From Elusimicrobiota bacterium (GTDB taxonomy: Bacteria; Elusimicrobiota; Elusimicrobia; Elusimicrobiales; UBA9959): 51,093 nucleotides of DNA. Position numbers and translations under genes: made by a program. The stretch covers positions 1 through 51,093 of the forward strand of contig JAUSCK010000042.1 in assembly GCA_030651035.1 (NCBI GenBank). The letters are read 5' to 3'. Positions 16,028-36,543 of the stretch are shown here, one piece after another. The first letter of the stretch is position 1. Each line of letters opens with the position of its first letter. Below the pieces are notes generated by a model. That model was not told the origin of the DNA. It made no database searches and was given only the letters and a program-made list of their open reading frames with translations.

Positions 16028-18391
16028 ATGGCGATGAAAAAATTCAATCATCTTCAGGCTAAGTCGCTTAAAGAAGCGGCCGCACTTATCTCCGGGGCAG
16101 GCCCCGCACTTTGGCCCGGGCACGGGAAAAAGTGCGGGGCGAGCCGGACCCTCGCGATCGCCGGCGGCACCGACGCGCTGGGCGCCCTCAAGGACAAGAT
16201 CCACAGGGAAAGCCCGGCGCTGGTAGTGGACCTTAAGACGATCCCCGGCCTGAACTATATCTCCGAGGACAAAGCCGGGCTGCGCATCGGCGCGCTGACC
16301 CCGCTGAACGAAATAGCCGCGCACAAGACGGTCAGCGGGAAATACAAGCTCCTCGCCGAGGCGGCGCGCAGCGTCGCTTCCCCGCAGCTCAGGAACATGG
16401 CCACCATAGCCGGGAATCTCTGCCAGGAACCCAGGTGCTGGTACTACCGCACCCCCGACGACCAGTTCCATTGCCTGAGAAAAGGCGGCACGCATTGCGG
16501 CGCGCTCCTGGGCGAGAACCGCTACCACTCTATATTCGGAGGCGCGCGGGTGGCCGCGCCTGCCTGCACGGACGCCTGCCCCGGCAACGTAGAGATAGCG
16601 GATTATCTTTCCCTGGTAAGGGAAGGGAATTTAAGCGCCGCCGCGGAGATTATCCTCAGGAACAACCCGCTCCCGGCCCTGACCGGCCGCGTCTGCCCGC
16701 ATCTCTGTGAAGGGAAATGCAACCGCGCCGCGTTCGACGAAGCGGTCTCTATCCGCGCCATGGAGCGGTCCCTCGGGAATAATATCCTTGAACACGCCGC
16801 TGAATTTATGAAGCCGCCCGCTAAACGGACGAAGAAAAAGATCGCTGTGGTCGGCTCCGGCCCGGCCGGGCTGGCGGCGGCTTATTACCTGAGACTGGCC
16901 GGGCACCAGGTGACGGTGTTCGACAGGCTGCCCCGCGCGGGCGGGATGCTGGCCTACGCCATCCCGGCGTACCGGCTCCCCAGGAACCTGGTCCGCGCCC
17001 AGGTAGCGGCGCTGGAGGCGATGGGAATAACCTTTAAACTCAATACAGAAATAGGCCCCAAGGGCATCTCCCTGCGCGCCCTGCGCAGGGATTTTGACGG
17101 CGTGTTCCTGGCGACCGGGGCCTGGGCGCAGAAAAACCTGCGGCTCGGGAGATCGGAACTGCTCACCTCCGGCATGGCCTTCCTGACGGGCAGCAAGCCC
17201 GTCGTGGGCAGGAATGTTTTAGTGATCGGCGGCGGCAATGTGGCGGTGGACGTGGCGGTGAGCGCCCGGCGCGCGGGCGCCCGGAGCGTGACGATGGCCT
17301 GCCTGGAGGCCCGGGACGGGATGCCGGCCTTCCCGGCGGAGATCGCTGAGGCCGTGAAAGAAGGCGTGCGCATTCTTCCCGGGTGGGGGCCGCAGCGGAT
17401 CCTTGAAGCGGGGGGGAAAGTGAAGGGGATGGAGTTTGTCCGGTGTTCTTCGGTTTTTGACGGACAGGGTAATTTTAATCCCAACTTCGACGCTGGTCAG
17501 AATAAGGTGGTCAAAGCCGACCAGGTCATCCTGGCAATCGGCCAGGCCGCCGAGCTCGGCTACGCCGCGGGCGTCAAGACGCTGCGGGGTCTGCTCATCG
17601 CGGATGAAGCGACGCAGGCCACCAGCCTGGCCGGCGTGTTCGCGGGCGGGGACGCGGTAAGCGGCCCGGCATCGGTTATTCACGCCATCGCCGCCGGGCG
17701 CAGGGCCGCGCGGGCGATGGAGATTTATCTGAAAGGCGGGAAAAAGCGGCCTGAAAAGAGCGCGCATGCCGCTGTAAGCCCCCTGCTGGCGCTGAACGCC
17801 GATTGCGGCGCGCACAGCTCGCGGACCGGGCACTCCGAAAGCAAGGGGTTAACCCCTGACGGGCTGAGCGCGGAAGCCAGGCGCTGCATCGACTGCAGCT
17901 GTGTCGCGGTAAACGCTTCGGACCTGGCGCCGGCGCTGGCGGCCCTCGGCGCGAGGATAAAAACGACCAGACGGACCATTGCGGCCGAAGATTTCTTTAC
18001 CGCCGGCGTGCTGAAGTCCACCGTGCTGGACCATGACGAGCTGGTGGAGGAGATACTGGTGCCGGCGCCGCGGCCGGGCAGCGTCCAAGGCTACCACAAG
18101 TTCAGGATACGGAACTCCATAGACTTCCCTATTGCCGGCCTGGCCGGCGTTTTCAGCACCGCGGGGGGGAAGATCAGGGACGCCAGGCTGGTGCTGAGCG
18201 CCGTGGCCCCCGTCCCGCTCAGGCTGAAAGCCGTTGAGGAGTTCCTGGAAGGGAAACCGGCCGGGGAGAAAACGGCTGCCGCTGCCGGGGAACTTGCCGC
18301 AAAAGAAGTCCGGCCGCTGGCTAAGAACCGCTTTAAGGTCCAGATCGTAAAAGCCCTGCTCCAAAAAGCGATCATGTCCTCGGCCGGATAA
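16028..18391 (+). CDS. Molybdenum hydroxylase FAD subunit with nested GltD-like oxidoreductase
   Basis: A 787-residue mosaic. Residues 1-175 are the FAD-binding half of a PaoB/HcrB-type subunit (IAGGTDA; TIAGNLCQEPRCWYYR; Cys at about 138, 149 and 157 suited to a [4Fe-4S] cluster). Residues about 178-260 are the Fer4_20-type domain of glutamate synthase small subunits (CTDACPGNVEIADYL; GRVCPHLCEGKCNR). Residues about 270-575 are a two-dinucleotide-fold reductase (VVGSGPAGLAAAYYLR for FAD, VIGGGNVAVDVAVSARRAG for NAD(P), GVFAGGDAVSGPASV). From about 629 the flavoprotein resumes at CVAVNASDLAPAL and ends with its C-terminal domain. The reductase is thus inserted in the middle of the subunit. 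It probably ties the hydroxylase to NAD(P)(H). A palindrome (16101-16140) inserts PALWPGHGKKCG near residue 26. Confidence 0.9.
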   Translation: MAMKKFNHLQAKSLKEAAALISGAGPALWPGHGKKCGASRTLAIAGGTDALGALKDKIHRESPALVVDLKTIPGLNYISEDKAGLRIGALTPLNEIAAHKTVSGKYKLLAEAARSVASPQLRNMATIAGNLCQEPRCWYYRTPDDQFHCLRKGGTHCGALLGENRYHSIFGGARVAAPACTDACPGNVEIADYLSLVREGNLSAAAEIILRNNPLPALTGRVCPHLCEGKCNRAAFDEAVSIRAMERSLGNNILEHAAEFMKPPAKRTKKKIAVVGSGPAGLAAAYYLRLAGHQVTVFDRLPRAGGMLAYAIPAYRLPRNLVRAQVAALEAMGITFKLNTEIGPKGISLRALRRDFDGVFLATGAWAQKNLRLGRSELLTSGMAFLTGSKPVVGRNVLVIGGGNVAVDVAVSARRAGARSVTMACLEARDGMPAFPAEIAEAVKEGVRILPGWGPQRILEAGGKVKGMEFVRCSSVFDGQGNFNPNFDAGQNKVVKADQVILAIGQAAELGYAAGVKTLRGLLIADEATQATSLAGVFAGGDAVSGPASVIHAIAAGRRAARAMEIYLKGGKKRPEKSAHAAVSPLLALNADCGAHSSRTGHSESKGLTPDGLSAEARRCIDCSCVAVNASDLAPALAALGARIKTTRRTIAAEDFFTAGVLKSTVLDHDELVEEILVPAPRPGSVQGYHKFRIRNSIDFPIAGLAGVFSTAGGKIRDARLVLSAVAPVPLRLKAVEEFLEGKPAGEKTAAAAGELAAKEVRPLAKNRFKVQIVKALLQKAIMSSAG
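16101..16140. repeat. Coding palindrome, copy 3 (in FAD/GltD gene)
   Basis: A 12-bp perfect inverted repeat, arm GCCCCGCACTTT (16101-16112 and 16129-16140), with loop GGCCCGGGCACGGGAA. It is read in a different frame from copies 1 and 2, giving PALWPGHGKKCG between the first helix and the IAGGTD motif of the FAD domain. Confidence 0.9.
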
Positions 18392-22163: not shown

Positions 22164-22856
22164 CTATTGCTGAATACACCCCGCACTTTTTCCGGAAGCC
22201 GGCCAAATTGCGGGGTAAAGCCGGTCAGCCAGTTCCTCCGGCCCGCCGCAGTCGGCCAGTTTGCACCCGTTCCTGTAGATGTGAAAAAAATGTTTCTTCT
22301 TCATCTCGGCGAGGTCGTTGTGCACCACAAGATCCGCCGAGGACAGGGCGCGGACTTTTTCAAGAACGCGCTCAGCCGCTGCGCCAGAGGTCAGCTTGAA
22401 GCCTATCAGCAGCGGCGGGGCCTTTTTCCCGGCCGCCGCGTATTTTTTTATCCGGTCTATGATCTTAAAGTTCCTTTTCAGGACCAGCTTGATAACCGGC
22501 GCTTCGGAATCCAGCTTGCCGGCGCGGCCCGGCTTAATTCTTTTGCCGCCGGCCTCTATTAGGGCGGGGGAATAATCGCTGACCGCCGCCAAGTGGACTA
22601 CCGCGTCGAAGGCCTGCGTCTTTAAAAGCCGTTGAAGTTCCAGGTCCAGGTCCTTAAAACCCGTGAATTCTCTCACGCTGATGTTTTTGCCGGCGGGCCG
22701 CTCGGCGCCCTGCGCGCAAAGGCACATGGTCTTACAGCCGCGCGCGGCGAAGCGCTCGGCTATTATGCGGCCGGTCCTGCCGGTGCTCATATTGGTTATG
22801 AAACGGGCGGCGTCGATGTATTCCCGCGTCCCGCCGAAAGTCAGAAGCACTTTCAT
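22164..22856 (-). CDS. coaB: Phosphopantothenate-cysteine ligase (stand-alone CoaB)
   Basis: A 230-residue enzyme that joins cysteine to 4'-phosphopantothenate, normally with CTP. The N-terminal Rossmann start is LLTFGGTREYIDAARFITNMSTG, the nucleotide loop. VVHLAAVSDYSP and the KIKS-like lysine segment (GKLDSEAPVIKLVLKRNFKIID) and the ADLVVHND motif follow. In most bacteria CoaB is fused behind CoaC; here they are separate genes with a 4-bp overlap. The C terminus is built from the palindrome at 22178-22216, giving PAIWPASGKSAG, then CIQQ and the stop, so the element may have replaced the original end. The minus-strand order places it in the CoA operon. Confidence 0.93.
   Translation of the reverse strand: MKVLLTFGGTREYIDAARFITNMSTGRTGRIIAERFAARGCKTMCLCAQGAERPAGKNISVREFTGFKDLDLELQRLLKTQAFDAVVHLAAVSDYSPALIEAGGKRIKPGRAGKLDSEAPVIKLVLKRNFKIIDRIKKYAAAGKKAPPLLIGFKLTSGAAAERVLEKVRALSSADLVVHNDLAEMKKKHFFHIYRNGCKLADCGGPEELADRLYPAIWPASGKSAGCIQQ
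22178..22216. repeat. Coding palindrome, copy 4 (3' end of coaB)
   Basis: Arms ACCCCGCACTTT (22178-22189) and AAATTGCGGGGT (22205-22216), 11 of 12 paired, with a 15-nt loop. The outer pair is A-T where copies 1-3 have G-C. The complement of the loop (GGCCGGCTTCCGGAA) resembles the copy 5 loop. It encodes the last dozen residues of CoaB in the PALW frame. Confidence 0.88.
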
Positions 22857-23395
22857 AAATGCTTTATTATTTCCTTATATATAGCGTCGGGCTCCAGCAG
22901 CCTGCCGGCGCCTTTGTCGCCGCAGGCCTGGTAGCCGGTGCCGGTGCCCAGCATCTTTACGCCCCAGCCGGCAAGTATGCCCGCCGAGCGCCTCGTGGCC
23001 GGGTGGGCCCACATGTTCTGGTTCATGGCCGGGGCTACCAGGTAGGGCTTCGAGAAGTCGAAGGCCAGGAAGACGGTGGAGATATAATCGTCGCCTATCC
23101 CGGCCGCCAGCTTGTTGATAATATTGGCGGTGGCCGGGCAGATGATCGCCAGGTCCAGCCATTTGGTCAGGGCTATATGCTCCAGCGCCGACCTGTCCTC
23201 GAAAGTGTCGACGTAGACCGCGTTATGGGTGAGCCCTTCAAGGGTGGACTTGCCGATGAATTTCAGCGCGTTCGCCGAGCAGACGGTCTTGACGTCGAAT
23301 CCCTCCTGCACCAATTTTGAGACGACATTGCAGGCCTTGTAGCAGGCTATGGAGCCTGTCAGCTGGAAGAGTATCTTGCCTTTAGATTTGGACAT
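22853..23395 (-). CDS. coaC: Phosphopantothenoylcysteine decarboxylase (stand-alone CoaC)
   Basis: A 180-residue FMN-dependent HFCD-family decarboxylase making 4'-phosphopantetheine. The N terminus LFQLTGSIACYKA binds FMN phosphate, the PxMNxxMW substrate motif is APAMNQNMWAHPATRR, and the flap with catalytic Cys is GYQACGDKGAGRL. The active-site His is probably in LEHIALTKW. The usual fused CoaB half is missing and encoded by the next gene. The start at 23395 overlaps the panC end by 14 bases, and the stop overlaps coaB by four bases, so translation is coupled throughout. Confidence 0.95.
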   Translation of the reverse strand: MSKSKGKILFQLTGSIACYKACNVVSKLVQEGFDVKTVCSANALKFIGKSTLEGLTHNAVYVDTFEDRSALEHIALTKWLDLAIICPATANIINKLAAGIGDDYISTVFLAFDFSKPYLVAPAMNQNMWAHPATRRSAGILAGWGVKMLGTGTGYQACGDKGAGRLLEPDAIYKEIIKHL

Positions 23396-27320: not shown

Positions 27321-27344
27321 AACGCGCCGTCCGGCGCGTTTTTT
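27321..27344 (+). terminator. Rho-independent terminator after tRNA-His
   Basis: AACGCGCC and GGCGCGTT form an 8-bp stem with loop GTCC, followed by a run of T. Confidence 0.85.
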
Positions 27345-27465
27345 GTTTACTTGCATTTGCCAGAATGTAGCACTATTTGTATTATTAGTTTGGCGTAATG
27401 CACAGCAAAATAATGTACTTCATTATGCTTTGTGGCGTCAGGTTAGGGGAGCCGCGATTTCTTAT

Positions 27466-28395
27466 ATGCAAACAGCCTTCTGGGGGATTGCCTTCTCTTT
27501 ATTATTGCCCTTTAGTGTGCACGCCGCCTCGACACGGAACTTATATCTCGTCTTGATAACGCGTATGGGAACAGTTGAGAACCAGTTCTGTGCGGAACTC
27601 ATATCAGATAATGGGAGGTATCTGCTTAAAAGTGAGGCGCATAAGGACATAATATTAATCCCGGAAACACCCGGGGCAATCCTTTCATCTGGAAAATATT
27701 CAGTTACATTGGAACATCAGAACCTTAAAACCAGCACGCTACAGGTGACCGCGACCATACACGGCGACAGCATAAAACTACTCAGTAAGACCCCCGTGGA
27801 CATTCTATTGGTGCAGCAGAACTGCCTAGGGGAAACGCCAATGTCCAACGCATGGAATTCGCCTTTTAGCGGCAATAACGATTCTAACGCTAAAGCTTTT
27901 CTGCGACGCATCGTAGGCAAATTTGCGGATTTCCGGACTGGCGGGGGGGATGACGGGCATAGACACGCCGGAATAGACCTCAGGGGCGGATTCGGCAAAG
28001 AAGTATACCCCATTAATGACGGCAGGGTGCTAGCCGCCTCATTCAAAGATCTATCCGGTGGGGTAGTAATAGAACATCTCCTCCCTGACGGGAGCAGATT
28101 ATATTCAAAATATGTCCATATACAGGACATTTCCGTGAAGGCAGGGGAACAGGTTACGCCCCATACCAGGCTAGGCAGGCTTTTTGACAAAGCCTCGTTC
28201 AAAAAAAGCCGATACACGCACAACCACTTACATTTGGAAATCCGGAAAGATTACGAGGATAAAGGCACCGACAGCTCATATAGAGAAACTCGCAAAGATT
28301 TGGAAAGGCATTGCTTAGACCCTGAAAAATTCCTTGGGGCACTACTCACTAAGAAACTTGCGCATACGGAACAAGGCCCCGGCGTAAGTAACTGA
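27466..28395 (+). CDS. Secreted M23-family (LytM) peptidase
   Basis: A 309-residue exported zinc endopeptidase that would cut peptidoglycan crosslinks. The signal peptide is MQTAFWGIAFSLLLPFSVHA, with cleavage near Ala20. The C-terminal LytM domain (about 145-270) keeps both metal motifs, HAGIDL (HxxxD) and NHLHLEI (HxH), plus YSKYVHI. The N-terminal beta-rich region (about 22-140) is unassigned. ATG 27466 is chosen because the signal peptide starts there; AGGGGAG lies about 14 bases upstream. It is the first gene of the island, and codon use is visibly more AT-rich than in the pan/coa genes. The next gene begins two bases after its stop. Confidence 0.85.
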   Translation: MQTAFWGIAFSLLLPFSVHAASTRNLYLVLITRMGTVENQFCAELISDNGRYLLKSEAHKDIILIPETPGAILSSGKYSVTLEHQNLKTSTLQVTATIHGDSIKLLSKTPVDILLVQQNCLGETPMSNAWNSPFSGNNDSNAKAFLRRIVGKFADFRTGGGDDGHRHAGIDLRGGFGKEVYPINDGRVLAASFKDLSGGVVIEHLLPDGSRLYSKYVHIQDISVKAGEQVTPHTRLGRLFDKASFKKSRYTHNHLHLEIRKDYEDKGTDSSYRETRKDLERHCLDPEKFLGALLTKKLAHTEQGPGVSN

Positions 28396-28397
28396 GA

Positions 28398-30086
28398 ATG
28401 AATTTTATCCTTCCATTCATGCTATCTGGTATCATTCTCGCTTTCAGCGGGGTCTTCTACCAGGCGTATTATATCCCCAAACTCCTGGTTCTTTTTATCG
28501 GCAGCCTTGCTTCAGCCGGCATTCTACTTCAGCAAGAGGAACTCCGCCTACCTGCACGCAGCACGGTTCTTTTCCTGGCTGGTTATTTATTAATGTTGGC
28601 CAGCATGGCCGGGTTCTCCGGAGAACCGCGACACGCTTACATACAATTACTATATGCCATCTGCGGTTGCGCGATGTATCTGGTCACAATTAACGCTAGT
28701 GATTGCCAGAAAACAACCGCACTTAAGTTCGCCTGTGGAATTGCACTAATACAGTGTTGTTTAACAACACTCCAGTCTGTCAATGCAGTGTCATTCCTGC
28801 CAAGCGTCCTGATCCCGGTAGAAGGCCGCCTAACCGGAACCGTCGGCAACCCGGAATTTCTTGCCACACTGCTAGGGGTGTCGATACTCATCGTTTTTCA
28901 TTTACGGGATAAATCCAAAAGCGAAAAAGTCCAGATATGGCTTGCCGCGGGGGCTGCGGCGCTTTTCTTCGGAATACTTGCCATTGGGAGCAAGGGAACA
29001 TTCCTTTACCTGGCTCTTTATGGCGTATGGCGTTTTAAACGCAGCTTTAAACTGATTGCCGCCGGAGCAATGACTTTTGTCCTTCTGATGTTACTGTTCT
29101 CTCCGGCATCGGTGTTGGGCCGTGTATTTCTTTGGTTGACCAGCCTACGCATGTTCATTATGAATCCTGTCACAGGAGTAGGCCTTGGGCAGTTCGAGAA
29201 CAATTACTTGCAAACCGTACACGGGTTCTTCTCATCTATGCCGGCTGTAGCGGGATATTTTGGAAGTTATACAAGTCTTACGCAGGATGCGCACAATATC
29301 TTCCTTCAGCAGGCAGCGGAACTGGGCCTGCCGGGGCTAGGCTTCTCGCTGCTATTCTCCATCTTTGTATTTAGACGCGCCCAAGCCTTAGGGGGACATC
29401 TTGGCGCTGCCTTGTTCCTATTGCTGTATAAGAGCATGTATACAGTAATGCTCAACTCTCCGACCAGCCTGCTGTTGCTGACGCTGCTCTTGGGCTTCTC
29501 CGAAAACCTAGGGCGTCTTAGATCCATAAAAGTCAAACCGATATGGACTACAGTTTTAATACCTGCTTTCTCAGCCCTAATTCTTGCCGGAACACACCTT
29601 TGCATAGCCGACTATCACTATCAGCGCGGACTCAAAGCCGTAATGATGGGTAATAGCGCCACCGCGAAAAAAGATTTTGTAGCTGCCATCGAAATAGACC
29701 CGGAAAGAGCCGATTTGTACTTGGCGTTAGCATATCTCGACTTTCTTGCCGGAAATACCGACGAGATGAGCTTGCGTATACAACAGGCACTTAAGCGTGG
29801 AAAGAGCATGGACACATACAAGATATCCGCGCACATGTTCTTTTATAGCCGCATTTACGGCAATGCAGAGAGAATATACCGTTACATACTCTTTCTTTTT
29901 CCTGAGCATCTTACATCTATGGCAAAACTCTCGGTTATCGCCATTGGAAAGGGCGATTACACACAGGCCGTATCGCTAGCAGAAAAGATTCTCGCATTAA
30001 AGCCCAGAAGGCCCAATGCTTCGGATATCAGGAACGCGCAGATCGCAAGCGAGATAGTACACAAATACGCCGGAGGTATAAAATGA
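28398..30086 (+). CDS. O-antigen ligase-like membrane protein with C-terminal TPR
   Basis: A 562-residue polytopic protein with about 10-12 hydrophobic segments in residues 1-400 and the Wzy_C/O-antigen-ligase signature region: MNPVTGVGLGQFENNYL and DAHNIFLQQAAELGLPGLG, the latter with the conserved His. Residues about 410-560 form TPR-like helical repeats (ATAKKDFVAAIEIDPERADLYLALAYLDF). Proteins with this layout ligate or polymerise surface glycans or attach glycans to proteins (PglL-type ligases also belong here). The substrate is unknown. It is cotranscribed with the M23 peptidase upstream, and its stop overlaps the next start by four bases. Confidence 0.85.
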   Translation: MNFILPFMLSGIILAFSGVFYQAYYIPKLLVLFIGSLASAGILLQQEELRLPARSTVLFLAGYLLMLASMAGFSGEPRHAYIQLLYAICGCAMYLVTINASDCQKTTALKFACGIALIQCCLTTLQSVNAVSFLPSVLIPVEGRLTGTVGNPEFLATLLGVSILIVFHLRDKSKSEKVQIWLAAGAAALFFGILAIGSKGTFLYLALYGVWRFKRSFKLIAAGAMTFVLLMLLFSPASVLGRVFLWLTSLRMFIMNPVTGVGLGQFENNYLQTVHGFFSSMPAVAGYFGSYTSLTQDAHNIFLQQAAELGLPGLGFSLLFSIFVFRRAQALGGHLGAALFLLLYKSMYTVMLNSPTSLLLLTLLLGFSENLGRLRSIKVKPIWTTVLIPAFSALILAGTHLCIADYHYQRGLKAVMMGNSATAKKDFVAAIEIDPERADLYLALAYLDFLAGNTDEMSLRIQQALKRGKSMDTYKISAHMFFYSRIYGNAERIYRYILFLFPEHLTSMAKLSVIAIGKGDYTQAVSLAEKILALKPRRPNASDIRNAQIASEIVHKYAGGIK

Positions 30087-31225
30087 CACAAAAGACCGCC
30101 AACATAATCGCTGTCCTTGCAATAGTCGGCCTAGCCGCAGGTTATTACCTGGCTCAGTATCGCAAATCCGGCGCTGCACCGTTCCAGCCGGCTGTCGCGT
30201 CAACTACAGCCACCACCATAAGTCAGCCGTCAGCAGAAAAGACCGCGGGGACGGCCGGACCGCTTCCCTCCGGAGACAGTCTAAGCCTGATTAGCGGGGA
30301 AACCGCGAGTCAGACCGCAATGTCTGCCGAAGGGGAATTAGATAGACCCGAGGGAATGGAGTGGTTCTATAAACGTTTCGGAAACAGCACCTGGTTCGCG
30401 GAAGGAACCTTTAATGCAAAATCTTTTACCCCGCAAGAGTATGAAACCCTTATAGCCGCTGCCTTGCAAGGCAATGAGTCTGCGACTGTAGCTTTAAAGC
30501 TTTCAATCCTAAAGTATCTAATTGAAAATCCTAAAGACGCCGAATATAAAGCGGTAAAAGAGAAACTCTACTCAGAAGAATTCCTGAAGACAGTTCCGAG
30601 GTTTGAATATCTGGCCGAAATGCTGCCAGATGAACTGCTCGACAATAAAGATTTCGCCGCTGATATCCTTGCCAAGAACCCCTATAATCTGAAATTTTTT
30701 TCCGAACGGTTGCGCTCCGATAAAGAAATTGTGTCCAAGGTTATATCAAACAACATCTATCTGCTTGAGCTTGCCTCGGACGCCCTGCGCAACGATAAAG
30801 CCTTCATAAAGGAGCTGTTGTTGAAGGATCCGACTGCCCTTAGCTATATTTCAGACGAACTCAAGGGAGATAAGGACCTGGTATTACCGGTTCTTAAAGG
30901 TCACCCGGAACTTTATTCGGCTGCGTCCTCGAAAGTCCAGAACGATCCTGAAGTACTGCCGCTTATCCGTACATTTATCCTGACTGGGGGGCGTGGCAAT
31001 GTAAGTGCGCTTCCTGAAAAACTCCGGGGCGACAGGGAAGTGGTCATGAAAGCTGTGGAAAGCAATTGCAGCTTACTGGAATCCGCATCCGTGGAACTTC
31101 GCGACGACGAGGAAGTGGTAAGTAAGGCCATCGCGCATTCGCGATATTGCCTTCAGTACGCAAGCAGCAGGCTGCGGGAAAAGCTTAAACAGCCGGGGCA
31201 GACTGGGCAAGAGGAGGTGGAGTAA
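30083..31225 (+). CDS. Membrane-anchored DUF4116-repeat protein
   Basis: A 380-residue protein with an N-terminal helix (about 8-26) as anchor, a Ser/Thr/Ala-rich spacer (about 30-90), then about seven tandem helical repeats of about 25 residues in residues 195-370. The units follow the DUF4116 theme L-R-x-D-K-E-x-V-x-K, for example SERLRSDKEIVSKVISNN, SVELRDDEEVVSKAIAHS and SDALRNDKAFIKELLLKD. DUF4116 repeats probably form a protein-binding solenoid, and their function is unknown. The protein most likely lies in the periplasm. GGAGGT precedes the ATG, which overlaps the previous stop (ATGA). The repeats are well conserved among themselves, which suggests a working scaffold. Confidence 0.82.
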   Translation: MTQKTANIIAVLAIVGLAAGYYLAQYRKSGAAPFQPAVASTTATTISQPSAEKTAGTAGPLPSGDSLSLISGETASQTAMSAEGELDRPEGMEWFYKRFGNSTWFAEGTFNAKSFTPQEYETLIAAALQGNESATVALKLSILKYLIENPKDAEYKAVKEKLYSEEFLKTVPRFEYLAEMLPDELLDNKDFAADILAKNPYNLKFFSERLRSDKEIVSKVISNNIYLLELASDALRNDKAFIKELLLKDPTALSYISDELKGDKDLVLPVLKGHPELYSAASSKVQNDPEVLPLIRTFILTGGRGNVSALPEKLRGDREVVMKAVESNCSLLESASVELRDDEEVVSKAIAHSRYCLQYASSRLREKLKQPGQTGQEEVE

Positions 31226-31274: not shown

Positions 31275-32444
31275 ATGAAAAGGCATTGGAAGTATACTGA
31301 CATCCCCGACAGGCTGTGGCGTGATTGGAGATGGCAGCTAAAAAACCGTTTCCATAACGGCAGCGATATCTCTAAATTCTTCCCGAACATCAGCGAGGAA
31401 TCGCGGAGGGATTTCGCAGCTCATGTGGCCAAGTTCAATATCTCGATAACGCCTTATACGCTTTCCTTGATTCGCCTGGATAAAAAACTAAATCCGACAG
31501 CAGTCGATCCGATCTGGAGACAGTTTAAATTCTTGTCGCCAGACGAACTTCGCGGCGACGGCGCTTATGACGGGGTTCACACCAACTGGGAACTTTCAAA
31601 GGAGATGCCTACCCCGATACTGCACCACAAGTATCCCGGAAGAGCGCTGCTGCGTGTAGTCAACAGCTGCCATGGGTACTGCAGCTACTGCTACCTGACG
31701 AAGCGCACCCTGGACGTTTCGAAGAAATTGCGTTTTGCCGCCTCTCCAGCAGTGTGGGAAAGGTCTCTTCGCTACCTGCGCGCCAATCCGGACATATCCG
31801 ACGTCCTGATAAGCGGCGGCGACCCCCTTCTGCTGCCGAATGACGCGCTGGAGAAGATCCTCAGCGACGTTGCCGCCGTAAGCTCCGTCAAGACTATCAG
31901 GATCAACACCAGGGCATTGACCTTTAACCCCTTCCGTGTGGACCCAGGGCTTGCCGCCATACTAAAAAAACACCGGGTGACAGTTCTTGAGATACACTTG
32001 GCCCACCCCAACGAGATTACACGGGAATTCGACTCCGCGCTGGAAGTCTTAGACAAAGGTGGATACAGGCCTCTCATACTCTGGCGATCCCCTCTGCTCA
32101 GGGGGATAAACGATTCCGTAGCGACGCTGAGGGAACTGCTGCTCATGCTTTATGCCCGCCGGATCGTGCCCTACTATCTCTTTCATAACGCCCCGTACAG
32201 CCTTGGACGGGAGTATTACGGCACCTCCGTAAAGCGCGGGATAACACTGATGAAGGAACTGCGCCGGGTGATCCCCGGGCCAAGTTTTCCGCGCTACACG
32301 CTTTTTCATCCTACCGGAAAGCAGGACATCCCGCTGGAGGCAGGTGGCACTCCGGAATTCCGCTTCTGCCGCGACGCCTCAGGAAAGCCCGCGGTAAAGT
32401 TCCGCAATTGGAGAGGCCGGTCAGTATTCTACCCGGACCGCTGA
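31275..32444 (+). CDS. Lysine 2,3-aminomutase-family radical SAM enzyme, altered substrate pocket
   Basis: A 389-residue PLP-dependent radical SAM enzyme. The cluster motif is C-x3-C-x2-C in NSCHGYCSYCYLTKR (about residue 136), followed by VLISGGDPLLL and the KAM-type barrel. The PLP lysine fits PTGKQDIPLE. In Clostridium lysine 2,3-aminomutase two Asp residues (293 and 330) hold the substrate side chain; by manual alignment the equivalent spots here read HNAP and LFHP, with no Asp. Lysine is therefore unlikely to be the substrate, and the reaction could be on another alpha-amino acid or a non-aminomutase reaction. It lies between the envelope genes and the radical SAM-VanW gene, separated from the latter by three bases. 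A PdxB-type gene for PLP synthesis ends the island. Confidence 0.85.
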   Translation: MKRHWKYTDIPDRLWRDWRWQLKNRFHNGSDISKFFPNISEESRRDFAAHVAKFNISITPYTLSLIRLDKKLNPTAVDPIWRQFKFLSPDELRGDGAYDGVHTNWELSKEMPTPILHHKYPGRALLRVVNSCHGYCSYCYLTKRTLDVSKKLRFAASPAVWERSLRYLRANPDISDVLISGGDPLLLPNDALEKILSDVAAVSSVKTIRINTRALTFNPFRVDPGLAAILKKHRVTVLEIHLAHPNEITREFDSALEVLDKGGYRPLILWRSPLLRGINDSVATLRELLLMLYARRIVPYYLFHNAPYSLGREYYGTSVKRGITLMKELRRVIPGPSFPRYTLFHPTGKQDIPLEAGGTPEFRFCRDASGKPAVKFRNWRGRSVFYPDR

Positions 32445-32447
32445 AGC

Positions 32448-34379
32448 ATGCCATATATCTGCAAGAATCCTTGGACAACGCTGTATATTTGGGGCAACGG
32501 GAATGTAACCCATTGCTGCTATTCCAACGTCGGCAGCCTTGGGAACATAAACGAAACGCCTTTATTGGATATTTGGCGTGGCCCTAAACTGAATTTTGTC
32601 CGTGAGAACATGGCACAGGGGAACTACCTGCAGGCCGGCTGCGAATATTTCTGCCGCTCATACCGCTGGAATAAGTTTTATGGTTCCAAAAACACGGCTG
32701 CGATCCCGGAAGGACTTGGCAGGGTTGAAGAACTGCCTCCCGCCTGGGCCGAGGACGGGCCCGGTATCCTGGGCTTCGGGATCGACTGGGATTGCAACTT
32801 GAGATGCCGCCATTGTTTATCGTCGAGAAAAGGCAAGGGAGTAAAACAAGAAGATTTCCACACTCTCCGGACTTTTACAGAGAAAAGCCGTTTTTTGCGT
32901 TTCATGGGCGGGGAATTCACGATTAACAAAGACTGCCTTTCTATGCTTAAAGAATTGGGGACGTGGGAAGCCCAGCCCATAGTTTTTTTCAGCACCAACG
33001 GACAGACACCGATAGCGTCCGTTATGCCGTATTGCGGCGGATTAAAAGGGTTGCACCTAAAGTTTTCACTGGAAGGATTGAACAGTGATTATGAACACAT
33101 ACGCACCGGAGCGTCATGGGATGTTTTCGAGCGCAACCTGGATGAGGCAGCGGCCATTTTTGTGGCCAAGCGCGCGGAGGGGAAGGACTGGCGTCTATAT
33201 CTTAACTTCTGTGTGATGAAGAGCAATTTCCGGAATCTGCCGTCCATTATTCAATACGCCGTCAAAAAAGACCTCCCGCTGGTTCTCAATACCATAAACG
33301 GGATGCGCCATATAGATGAGAATATGTTCATGTACTCCGCCGCCTGTCTTCCAAAAGAAGAAATACAACAAATTGCCGAACGTTGCAGGGCAATCCTGGG
33401 AGAAGCCCGCCAATATTGCTTTAAGAACGAACTCGTCACGCATCTGGATTATATTCTTCGTTCCGCCAATGACAAAAAACTCAGGTTGCCACACCGAGCC
33501 TTACAGTTGTGGACACTTTTTGTTAAAGGCCGCGCGGCGGACCTCTCAATGTACGCTTTCTATAGGCTCTCAATGAACCCAACCGCATTTTTATCCTATG
33601 TCTATAGGAAGATACGGGGTAAAATATCCACCCCGGCAATCAGATTCAAGACCGCGCGGAGGATCATTGCAAACACCGAGGATATTTTAAGGGGTTGGGC
33701 ATGGAATTACTCAGTAACTAAAGCAGGAAACCAGGAGGCGAACGAATTCCGGCACCGGATAGGCGAATTTCAATTGCCCATAAAGGAGCGGGGAGAACTG
33801 GGCGTTGAGAACAAGAACCGTATCTCAAATATGCGGCTGGCCTGCGAGGCTATTGATATGTTGGTATTACAGCCGGGACAGATCTTTTCGATGCGGAAGG
33901 TGATCGGTGAACCAGTAGCCCAGAAAGGATATAAACCGGGCCCCGTTATCATCAGAGGCAAACTATCCAGCTCGGTTGGCGGCGGTCTGTGCCAGATATC
34001 AACAGTGCTCTTCAACGCAGCCCTGCAGGCGAATATACGCATACTTGAAAAACACAATCACAGCGTGGACTTGTGGGGGAAAGACCGGATAGTTGAGCTT
34101 GGACGGGACGCGGCGTACACCTATGAACTGAAAGACCTGAAGTTCAGAAACGATATGGCGGCGCCGGTACTGATCCGTATTTCAGCTGACGGGGGGAAGA
34201 AACTGGTTTGTGCCGAATTGTATTGCAGCAGCCCCCTAGCCGGCGAGGTAACGGTAGAAACCCTGGCGGACGCTAAGCCGGGAGAGGTTAAACACATAGA
34301 AACACGAAGATTTATAAGAACTAACGGAAAGACGGAGTTGACCTATTCCCGGCGGGAAACATATCTTTCCCGCAGTTGA
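32448..34379 (+). CDS. SPASM/radical SAM protein fused to a VanW domain
   Basis: A 643-residue fusion. Residues 1-75 form a SPASM-like auxiliary-cluster segment placed before the core (CKNPWTTLYI, NGNVTHCCYSNVGSLGNI, DIWRGPK, CEYFC). The radical SAM core is about 108-310, with C116-x3-C120-x2-C123 in WDCNLRCRHCLSS, then FMGGEFTI and KFSLEGL. A basic linker (about 330-435) leads to a VanW domain (about 440-590): NRISNMRLACEAID, VGGGLCQISTVLFNAAL, HNHSVDLW, LGRDAAYTYELKDLKFRN. VanW, of unknown function, accompanies glycopeptide-resistance clusters and cell-wall proteins. There is no frameshift or extra start between the parts, and no signal peptide precedes either. The ATG lies three bases after the aminomutase-like gene. 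The substrate may be a peptide or cell-wall precursor. Confidence 0.88.
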   Translation: MPYICKNPWTTLYIWGNGNVTHCCYSNVGSLGNINETPLLDIWRGPKLNFVRENMAQGNYLQAGCEYFCRSYRWNKFYGSKNTAAIPEGLGRVEELPPAWAEDGPGILGFGIDWDCNLRCRHCLSSRKGKGVKQEDFHTLRTFTEKSRFLRFMGGEFTINKDCLSMLKELGTWEAQPIVFFSTNGQTPIASVMPYCGGLKGLHLKFSLEGLNSDYEHIRTGASWDVFERNLDEAAAIFVAKRAEGKDWRLYLNFCVMKSNFRNLPSIIQYAVKKDLPLVLNTINGMRHIDENMFMYSAACLPKEEIQQIAERCRAILGEARQYCFKNELVTHLDYILRSANDKKLRLPHRALQLWTLFVKGRAADLSMYAFYRLSMNPTAFLSYVYRKIRGKISTPAIRFKTARRIIANTEDILRGWAWNYSVTKAGNQEANEFRHRIGEFQLPIKERGELGVENKNRISNMRLACEAIDMLVLQPGQIFSMRKVIGEPVAQKGYKPGPVIIRGKLSSSVGGGLCQISTVLFNAALQANIRILEKHNHSVDLWGKDRIVELGRDAAYTYELKDLKFRNDMAAPVLIRISADGGKKLVCAELYCSSPLAGEVTVETLADAKPGEVKHIETRRFIRTNGKTELTYSRRETYLSRS

Positions 34380-34398
34380 TATCGTGCAGGAGAACTTT

Positions 34399-35448
34399 GT
34401 GCGCAAAATAACAAATATTGGCATCGTGCTGGAGACCAAGGCGGATGCGCTGAAAACAGGACTGCCGCTGGATCAGTTATACCATTGGCGGGAGCCGGGG
34501 GAAATAGCCGCGATAACCGGGGCAATAAAAGAACTCGGCTTTACCACAGTCATCCTTGGCACTCCGGAAGATCTGGCGGCACATCCCGTAAGCGGAGTAG
34601 ATTTCATCTTCAATCTTTCAGTAGGCTTCGTTAATCGCTATCGCCTGGCGGCGGGTCCTGCCCTCTATTCGTTGTTAAAACTTCCCTATTCCGGCGCCGA
34701 CCCGTACACGAAAATGATGAGCCAGCATAAGCACGCCATGAAGTCCTTCTGGGACAAGCTGGGCATTCCTACCCCTGAATGGGCATACATTCATACGCCG
34801 GGCGACGTGAGAGCCGCCTCACTTCCGCCGTTCCCGCTTATCCTCAAACCGGCATACGAAGGCTCCTCAATAGGGATAGATGAAAGTTCTGTAATCCATT
34901 CCAGGAAAAGTCTGCTGACAAAGGCGGAGGAGCTCTTTTCCCGCCTTAAAATGCCAATGATTGTTGAGCGGTTTATCGCCGGCCGCGAATGCAAGGTAGG
35001 AATCATCGGGAACGCTGAAACAGAGTTTTCCGGCATCATCGAGGATATCTGCGCCGATGGTAGTGGACTTGGAAAGGAGATGCTCGGCTTCCGCGTCAAA
35101 AAAGCGGGGACATACTCAAAACGGACCCTTATCGCCGGAGATGCTCTTTCGAAACGCATCATGAAGGACGCGAAAAGGATTTATGAACTGTTCCGGCCTG
35201 TAGACTACGGGACCATGGACGTGCGCGTGGACAACCGGGGATGCCATTACTTTTTGGAGTTCAACGCCGACGCGACTCTGCATCCGCAAAGGACGCTGGC
35301 ACAATGCTGCGCCTTGAACGGGGTAGATTACAGGACGATGATCGGAAAAATCCTTACAACATCCTTTAAACGGTGGGGGATCAAGCAACAGCTACCTAGG
35401 ATTAAATCCGAGGGAGCGCATCACACGGACAAATCGCGCCGGGCCTGA
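34399..35448 (+). CDS. D-Ala-D-Ala-ligase-related ATP-grasp enzyme
   Basis: A 349-residue ATP-grasp ligase with the Ddl-like layout: an N-terminal pre-ATP domain (about 1-105), then PLILKPAYEGSSIGID, MIVERFIAGRECKVGI, and the metal end YGTMDVRVDNRGCHYFLEFN. The usual Ddl omega-loop and NxxPGMT motif are absent; the segment after LEFN reads ADATLHPQRTL. The acceptor or donor amino acid is therefore probably not D-Ala. GTG 34399 is preferred, six bases after AGGAG; an upstream GTG (34384) is less well placed. It likely condenses an amino acid, perhaps the product of the aminomutase-like enzyme. Its 3' end overlaps the convergent PdxB-like gene by 57 bases. Confidence 0.82.
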   Translation: MRKITNIGIVLETKADALKTGLPLDQLYHWREPGEIAAITGAIKELGFTTVILGTPEDLAAHPVSGVDFIFNLSVGFVNRYRLAAGPALYSLLKLPYSGADPYTKMMSQHKHAMKSFWDKLGIPTPEWAYIHTPGDVRAASLPPFPLILKPAYEGSSIGIDESSVIHSRKSLLTKAEELFSRLKMPMIVERFIAGRECKVGIIGNAETEFSGIIEDICADGSGLGKEMLGFRVKKAGTYSKRTLIAGDALSKRIMKDAKRIYELFRPVDYGTMDVRVDNRGCHYFLEFNADATLHPQRTLAQCCALNGVDYRTMIGKILTTSFKRWGIKQQLPRIKSEGAHHTDKSRRA

Positions 35449-36543
35449 CAGGGCAAGTGCCCGGCTTGAGAACTCAAAACGGCGCAGATAGCGTTTACGA
35501 AAAGCGGTAAACGCCGCGCCCGCAGTGGGGACTTTCACTACTTCCAACTTAAATTCAGCCGAATCTTTTTCAATATCATATATCCTCCGAACAGCACCGT
35601 GAAGAACGCTGTAAAGCGTCTCTCCGGGCGAACGCACGCAGGGAAGAGGCGCGCGTCGGAGAATCGACGGATTCCAAACAGAGGGTATCCCGAAATGAGC
35701 GCATACTGCGGCGTAGATCATACAGACTGCGGCGAGCCTGGCTTCCTGAGACAGCCCGGCTACATGTGGGGTGCTGATATCGGCCAGCTCCACCAACCCA
35801 GGGTCTATGTCCGGCTCATTCTCCCAAACGTCGATGACCGCACCACCGAGCCGTCCGGACTCGAGACATTCCTTAAGTGAGCGTTCGCAGACTATCCCAC
35901 CTCTAGCGGAATTAATGATAACGGCCCCGCGTTTAAGCCCGGCCAGCCTCTCCGCACCAAACAGACCCGCGGTCTTGTCTTTACCAGTAAAGGTCAGCGG
36001 CGTATGTATTGTTATAACATCGGAATCCATCAATTTGGATAGTGGCCTGAAGGACTTATCACCGGTAGTTCTGCGCTTCGGGGGATCGTTCAGCAGGACA
36101 TTTATTCCCAAAGTTTTCGCCTTTTCCGCTACCCGGCTGCCGACATTCCCTATTCCGACAACGCCTAACGTGGCCTCAGGGATGCTTATGCGGCCCCGCT
36201 CATGAAGGGACAAGAGCGCCGCAATCACATACTCTGCTACCGATTCCGCGTTACTGCCTGGTGCGGCAGAGAAAGCGATTTCTTGGTCCTTTAAATACCG
36301 GAGGTCGATATGGTCCGTACCGGCTGAAACCGTTCCGACGAACTTTATCCTGCTTCCGGCTAAAAGTTTTTTATCGACGCGCGTCACATACCGTACTATC
36401 AGGATATCGCAATTCTTTACCGTCGCAGCAGTGATTTCGCCGCTTTCAAGCAGCCGCAACCGGCCGATTCCCTTGAAAGCGTTATAGACATGAGGGATAT
36501 TCATGTCCGCAATTACCTGTAGGATTGGTCTATGTCTTCGCAT
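35392..36543 (-). CDS. pdxB: PdxB-type 4-phosphoerythronate dehydrogenase
   Basis: A 383-residue D-2-hydroxyacid dehydrogenase (E. coli PdxB is 378). The N-terminal part matches PdxB (ADMNIPHVYNAF; IKFVGTVSAGTDHID; FSAAPGSNAESVAEYV). The NAD loop is GVVGIGNVGSRVAEKA, and catalytic Arg, Glu and His are in NSARGGIV, WENEPDID and TPHVAGLS. The C-terminal PdxB dimerisation region is present (VPTAGAAFTAFRKRYLRRFEF, SLGFNP), which separates it from VanH-type lactate dehydrogenases. It oxidises 4-phosphoerythronate in pyridoxal-phosphate synthesis. It faces the ATP-grasp gene, overlapping its 3' end by 57 bases, and is the last gene before the right island repeat. A paralogue acting on another hydroxyacid is possible. 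Confidence 0.82.
   Translation of the reverse strand: MRRHRPILQVIADMNIPHVYNAFKGIGRLRLLESGEITAATVKNCDILIVRYVTRVDKKLLAGSRIKFVGTVSAGTDHIDLRYLKDQEIAFSAAPGSNAESVAEYVIAALLSLHERGRISIPEATLGVVGIGNVGSRVAEKAKTLGINVLLNDPPKRRTTGDKSFRPLSKLMDSDVITIHTPLTFTGKDKTAGLFGAERLAGLKRGAVIINSARGGIVCERSLKECLESGRLGGAVIDVWENEPDIDPGLVELADISTPHVAGLSQEARLAAVCMIYAAVCAHFGIPSVWNPSILRRAPLPCVRSPGETLYSVLHGAVRRIYDIEKDSAEFKLEVVKVPTAGAAFTAFRKRYLRRFEFSSRALALSGPARFVRVMRSLGFNPR

Follow-up and report, generated by a model that had tools for sequence, protein, structure and literature searches.

We identified a genuine and selected gene fusion in the genome of an Elusimicrobiota bacterium. It unites a twitch radical SAM enzyme with a VanW protein, both in full, which probably serve the same pathway. 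Together with a KamA-family radical SAM enzyme and a D-Ala-D-Ala-ligase-like (Ddl-like) ATP-grasp enzyme, the N-twitch radical SAM and VanW proteins probably constitute a four-component cassette for one undescribed pathway. The VanW module is tied to the twitch radical SAM enzyme, the KamA-like enzyme and the Ddl-like ligase by fusion, operon order and co-occurrence in two unrelated phyla. The cassette offers partners for two orphan groups, the cytosolic VanW proteins and the N-terminal-twitch radical SAM enzymes. The earlier note knew of no described system with this architecture, and we likewise found no description in the open-access literature on VanW with radical SAM, or on clusters of aminomutase, ATP-grasp and radical SAM enzymes.

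The window (the whole stretch of DNA analysed, 51,093 nucleotides) is an entire contig. The genome, 4.47 Mb in size and assembled in 320 contigs, contains the fused gene and the VanW domain as a single copy each.

Domain architecture of the fused gene

The fused gene consists of a 643-codon open frame (32448-34379, plus strand) with zero internal stops, encoding a protein of 643 aa. The earlier proposal, made from the letters, of an uninterrupted frame that combines a SPASM-like segment, a radical SAM core with the CxxxCxxC motif and an entire VanW domain was confirmed by the open reading frame and by the Pfam searches that the earlier note had suggested. The Pfam SPASM match covered residues 5-55 (40.7 bits, cut-off 21.5), the Radical_SAM match residues 116-236 (26.8 bits, E 7e-6, slightly under the cut-off of 29.5) and the VanW match (PF04294) residues 457-584 (135.2 bits, gathering cut-off 27), the last spanning positions 1-124 of the 130 in the profile. 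We placed the N-terminal SPASM/twitch segment at residues 5-69 (32460-32654, plus strand), using the Pfam SPASM and N_Twi_rSAM profiles; the radical SAM core at approximately residues 108-340 (32769-33467, plus strand), using Pfam, alignment, and an AlphaFold model with its fold matches; and the VanW module at residues 394-643 (33627-34376, plus strand), using Pfam, identity to the Brevinematales VanW proteins, conservation and a model. The CxxxCxxC motif corresponds to C116, C120 and C123, the GGE motif to residues 154-156, and the cysteines of the N-terminal segment are residues 5, 23, 24, 65 and 69, candidate ligands for the auxiliary Fe-S cluster of SPASM/twitch enzymes. On a tighter reading the N-terminal part is a short segment of the twitch type, smaller than a true SPASM domain, while the 250 residues of the VanW half make up a complete protein.

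In the usual SPASM radical SAM enzymes the SPASM domain follows the core, whereas in the fused protein it precedes it. The earlier note had drawn attention to this reversal; the position is indeed unusual, but the order is already known from N_Twi_rSAM (NCBIfam NF033640), in which an N-terminal twitch likewise precedes a CxxxCxxC radical SAM core. Residues 3-340 aligned to positions 3-359 of 398 in this profile at 110.5 bits, under the curated cut-off of 170, and by this comparison the fused protein is related to N_Twi_rSAM and not a strict member of it. Unlike the fused protein, the N_Twi_rSAM profile contains no VanW, and we found no recorded function for the family.

A PDB sequence search returned no match for the fused protein. 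The AlphaFold model of the whole protein was weaker (pLDDT 76, pTM 0.60) than that of the VanW module (pLDDT 89, pTM 0.88), in which Cys515 lies at the start of a helix. The modelled radical SAM core aligned with solved structures of radical SAM enzymes, of the SPASM/twitch and other types, including DesII (Z 12.5), BlsE (Z 12.2) and SkfB (Z 11.6). Viperin was also among the fold matches of the core; a defence role was rejected, the match of the core to a viperin-type profile being weak (20.6 bits). For the VanW model alone, solved structures matched the C-terminal beta segment only (best Z approximately 5), a result that says nothing about the novelty of the fold. This segment (residues 598-643; 34239-34376, plus strand) weakly matches structures that include G5 domains (Z approximately 4-4.7).

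No membrane segment was predicted in the fused protein by hydropathy (19-residue maximum 1.15), nor was an N-terminal signal-like stretch seen. Radical SAM-type Fe-S enzymes are cytosolic, and the fused protein appears to be cytosolic too.

Conservation and selection across the junction

Among 341 genomes of the phylum, the fused gene was found in one other, Elusimicrobia GWA2_62_23, at 89% identity. The GWA2_62_23 contig begins at residue 89 of the fused gene, and continues into the same ATP-grasp and PdxB-like genes as the window. Between the two genomes, dN/dS was 0.154 for the fused gene overall and 0.35 at the junction (residues 380-460). The ATP-grasp gene gave a value of 0.134, and the PdxB-like gene one of 0.197. 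The recovery of the same junction under purifying selection in an independent assembly excludes an assembly error, and the possibility of two genes joined in assembly, which the earlier note had named as a refutation, is contradicted. That the fused form is known from just two genomes might be taken to favour a functionless chance read-through or an assembly error; given the conservation and selection described here, which already contradict it, and the co-occurrence of the fusion components in a second phylum, we consider the probability of this explanation negligible. A KamA protein of GWA2_62_23 (33% identity) was rejected as an operon partner, being encoded in an apparent lysine-fermentation locus.

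Split counterparts in the Brevinematales

We performed a pattern scan of approximately 85,000 species, and a search of 734 genomes of two phyla (341 Elusimicrobiota and a sample of 393 Spirochaetota). In Spirochaetes GWF1_51_8 and Brevinematales DeMMO6_14, the genome-collection scan identified full-length stand-alone relatives of the radical SAM half, which measure 396 aa and share 45-47% identity with it. Both genomes contain one VanW gene each, unfused, and in both operons this gene lies between a KamA-like gene and a Ddl-like ATP-grasp gene, in the order found in the window. The operon proteins share 53-56% (KamA), 42-45% (VanW) and 52% (ligase) identity with those of the window. In one genome the stand-alone VanW aligns to the fused protein over residues 396-640, and in the other over residues 440-639 approximately. 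Thus, the stand-alone radical SAM and VanW proteins match the two halves, and the window protein is the sum of two whole proteins, a "Rosetta-stone" fusion.

The radical SAM gene is located outside the KamA-VanW-ligase operon in both Brevinematales genomes; that of GWF1_51_8 is at a contig end, so its distance to the operon is not fixed. In both genomes the stand-alone twitch radical SAM gene comes last in a conserved run of three genes, downstream of a GH3/NagZ-like hydrolase gene and a YbgC/FadM-type thioesterase gene (L027, 6346-9191; L026, 6324-9185).

Operon, neighbours and distribution

The KamA-family (lysine 2,3-aminomutase-like) radical SAM gene (31275-32444, plus strand), assigned by TIGR03820, a match to 2a5h and its Brevinematales identity, precedes the fused gene with a gap of 3 bases. 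The Ddl-like ATP-grasp gene (34384-35448, plus strand; Pfam Dala_Dala_lig_C, 67 bits, and Brevinematales identity) begins 4 bases downstream. Gaps of this size are too short for a precursor gene inside the operon, and inspection of the Brevinematales operons themselves showed none there either. Both observations argue against the cassette performing a RiPP-like peptide maturation or protein modification in which the twitch radical SAM enzyme acts on a ribosomal peptide, an idea that we regard as quite improbable, even with RiPP maturases such as SkfB among the nearest solved folds.

Upstream, genes for an M23 peptidase, a Wzy/TPR membrane protein and a DUF4116 protein (27343-31225, plus strand) are co-directional and closely spaced, and are not conserved with the operon. 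The Wzy protein was found in the window's genome only, and is absent beside the Brevinematales operon; its absence from GWA2_62_23 carries little weight, as the contig ends inside the fused gene. Downstream, a convergent gene encodes a PdxB-like D-2-hydroxyacid dehydrogenase (35392-36543, minus strand), identified from profile matches and co-occurrence in the genus, which is possibly an accessory to the cassette. Of the 32 genomes of the window's genus, the same two contain both the ligase and the PdxB-like gene, and these two are the ones that carry the cassette; the PdxB-like gene is absent from the other 30 at E<=1e-30. A 2-hydroxyacid enzyme adjoins the ligase in all three neighbourhoods, namely the PdxB-like enzyme in the window, a LarA-type racemase in L033 and a D-2-hydroxyacid dehydrogenase in L034, a pattern noticed post hoc and in which the LarA gene alone is co-directional. 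It hints at a hydroxy acid as the substrate of the ligase.

The cassette was identified in 4 of the 734 genomes of the two phyla searched, belonging to two lineages. Relatives of the radical SAM protein (E up to 1e-10) were present in 2 of the 393 Spirochaetota genomes, the two Brevinematales, and a close relative of the ligase was restricted to the same two among 18 genomes of their class. KamA, PdxB and any ligase or radical SAM enzyme of the cassette kind were absent from the fetched flanks (approximately 6 kb where the contig allowed) of 40 other VanW loci from both phyla. The four operon VanW proteins resolved as a single clade (support 0.98). Elusimicrobia radical SAM proteins at L010 and L028 (25% identity) occupy a different context, and were not counted as cassette members. 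We found no relative on viral contigs, and no relative of the radical SAM half in phages; plasmids yielded only distant Ddl-like ATP-grasp genes (24-27% identity), with no KamA or VanW in the two contexts checked, and the VanW genes of plasmids were mainly annotated as van-cluster types.

The fusion and fission, the operon order conserved in two phyla and the joint rarity of the components strongly support a functional link between the radical SAM and VanW proteins, with all four proteins working together. The GC content at 27-37 kb is 0.48-0.55, below that of most flanks (0.57-0.71), consistent with this region having been acquired.

The VanW half and its predicted activity

The statement in the earlier note that no activity is known for VanW has been superseded: an activity has been on record since 2024, the VanW proteins LdtCd4 and LdtCd5 of Clostridioides difficile being L,D-transpeptidases with a Cys-His-small-residue triad (PMC12729407, PMC11986978). 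The window protein shares with LdtCd4 and LdtCd5 a VanW domain with a Cys and a His. LdtCd4 and LdtCd5 are membrane-attached and carry peptidoglycan-binding domains; the window protein instead has a radical SAM enzyme as its fusion partner, and no membrane segment was predicted in it. The VanW transpeptidases known so far work outside the membrane, in contrast to the window protein, which appears to be cytosolic.

Cys515 (codon 33990-33992, plus strand), Glu534 and His538 (codon 34059-34061, plus strand; assigned to the catalytic triad from conservation) were invariant in 44 of 44 aligned VanW proteins, including all four operon members. This invariance of Cys515 and His538 makes a catalytic role for the VanW half the more likely reading over mere substrate presentation. 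The earlier note had supposed, from the fusion, that VanW binds or presents the substrate; the functional link between the two halves held up, and mere presentation became less likely. A VanW that only binds or presents substrate for the radical SAM half, its catalytic residues idle, would fit the physical fusion of the two halves and the existence of certain VanW proteins without transpeptidase activity (PMC12729407), but the cysteine and histidine are retained, and we judge it improbable. The cassette provides a defined set of four proteins for reconstitution.

The operon also resembles vanB- and vanG-type glycopeptide resistance clusters, in which the neighbours of VanW include an ATP-grasp ligase of the Ddl family and a D-2-hydroxyacid dehydrogenase, VanH. 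The operon differs from these clusters in that its ligase is not VanA/B-like, VanX, VanY and VanRS are absent, and two radical SAM enzymes are added. The profile for the glycopeptide-resistance VanW, vanW-gen (NF033128), scored 76.1 bits, under its cut-off of 365.

We additionally observed other VanW architectures in the loci examined. A Spirochaetota VanW carries an N-terminal HAD-type phosphatase (L106, 5942-7351, minus strand), another apparently cytosolic VanW fusion. In two proteins of 608-609 aa (L105, 5819-7642, plus strand; L094, 3771-5597, minus strand) VanW lies near the N-terminus, and the remaining 380-400 residues have no Pfam match.

Divergence of the KamA-like enzyme and the ligase

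The KamA-like protein keeps the CxxxCxxC motif, and matched TIGR03820 at 215 bits, under all KamA-family cut-offs. In all three operon members, Pro and Phe align with Asp293 and Asp330 of lysine 2,3-aminomutase (2a5h), which we take to be the residues that bind the substrate amino group. The lysine of a GKQDIP motif is invariant, and is two residues off the PLP-binding Lys337 in the alignment. As the lysine-binding Asp residues are missing, the aminomutase activity of this enzyme is itself something that we infer.

The ligase retains the EGSS loop and the metal-binding D, E and N residues. It has Thr in place of the canonical Ddl Arg and has lost the N-terminal Glu and the terminal Ser motif, and it scored 79.4 bits against the Ddl profile TIGR01205 (cut-off 245.65), compared with 319 for the true Ddl encoded elsewhere; its kinship to Ddl is therefore no proof of cell-wall chemistry. 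A canonical Ddl is also kept in 4 of 4 cassette genomes, indicating that the cassette ligase is an extra one.

Proposed pathway

We tentatively favour, with somewhat less than even confidence, a cytosolic pathway that modifies a peptide-like substrate, its most likely product being a modified cell-wall-type peptide or precursor. The cytosolic KamA-like enzyme would generate a shifted (beta-type) amino acid from a non-lysine substrate, and the ATP-grasp enzyme would couple this amino acid to a second unit, which may be a D-amino acid or a D-2-hydroxy acid. The radical SAM half of the fused enzyme would then modify the peptide-like substrate by radical chemistry, and the VanW half may cleave or transfer an acyl group of this substrate via Cys515 and His538. 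A more specific reading, which we consider unlikely, is a two-radical-SAM pathway that places a non-standard unit (e.g. a beta-amino or hydroxy acid) into a cell-wall precursor, with the radical SAM core and a cytosolic VanW domain of the transpeptidase type both acting on one substrate.

The substrate may be a cell-wall peptide, as the earlier note had suggested. A cell-wall target is slightly favoured, since both VanW and Ddl are families of wall enzymes. Apart from the catalytic residues of VanW, neither VanW nor the ligase showed the features that define classical wall enzymes; the nearby hydrolases and 2-hydroxyacid enzymes are few, lie on differing strands and were noticed post hoc. A real possibility, which we hold to be less than probable, is that the cassette makes a soluble small molecule unrelated to the wall (a dipeptide, depsipeptide, antibiotic-like compound or osmolyte), with VanW as a cytosolic acyl-transferase or hydrolase. 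Aminomutase-like, ATP-grasp and radical SAM enzymes together are typical of small-molecule logic, and the patchy distribution, the low-GC island at 27-37 kb and the loss of Ddl and lysine specificity residues from the ligase and KamA would agree with such a product; however, neither an exporter gene nor a gene for self-protection is conserved alongside the operon, and in other respects VanW and Ddl are families that suggest the wall. Should the product of the favoured pathway be a cell-wall unit, then bacteria that are known almost exclusively through metagenomes would be using radical chemistry to modify wall precursors.

Other genes in the window

Finally, we noted two further unusual gene structures in the window. 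A 787-aa protein (16028-18391, plus strand) has a Fer4_20 and pyridine-nucleotide oxidoreductase module apparently inserted in a CoxM-type FAD-binding subunit of a molybdenum hydroxylase. At 22164-23395 (minus strand), CoaB-like and CoaC-like parts are seemingly two separate overlapping genes, situated beside panC/panB and coaX-like genes.
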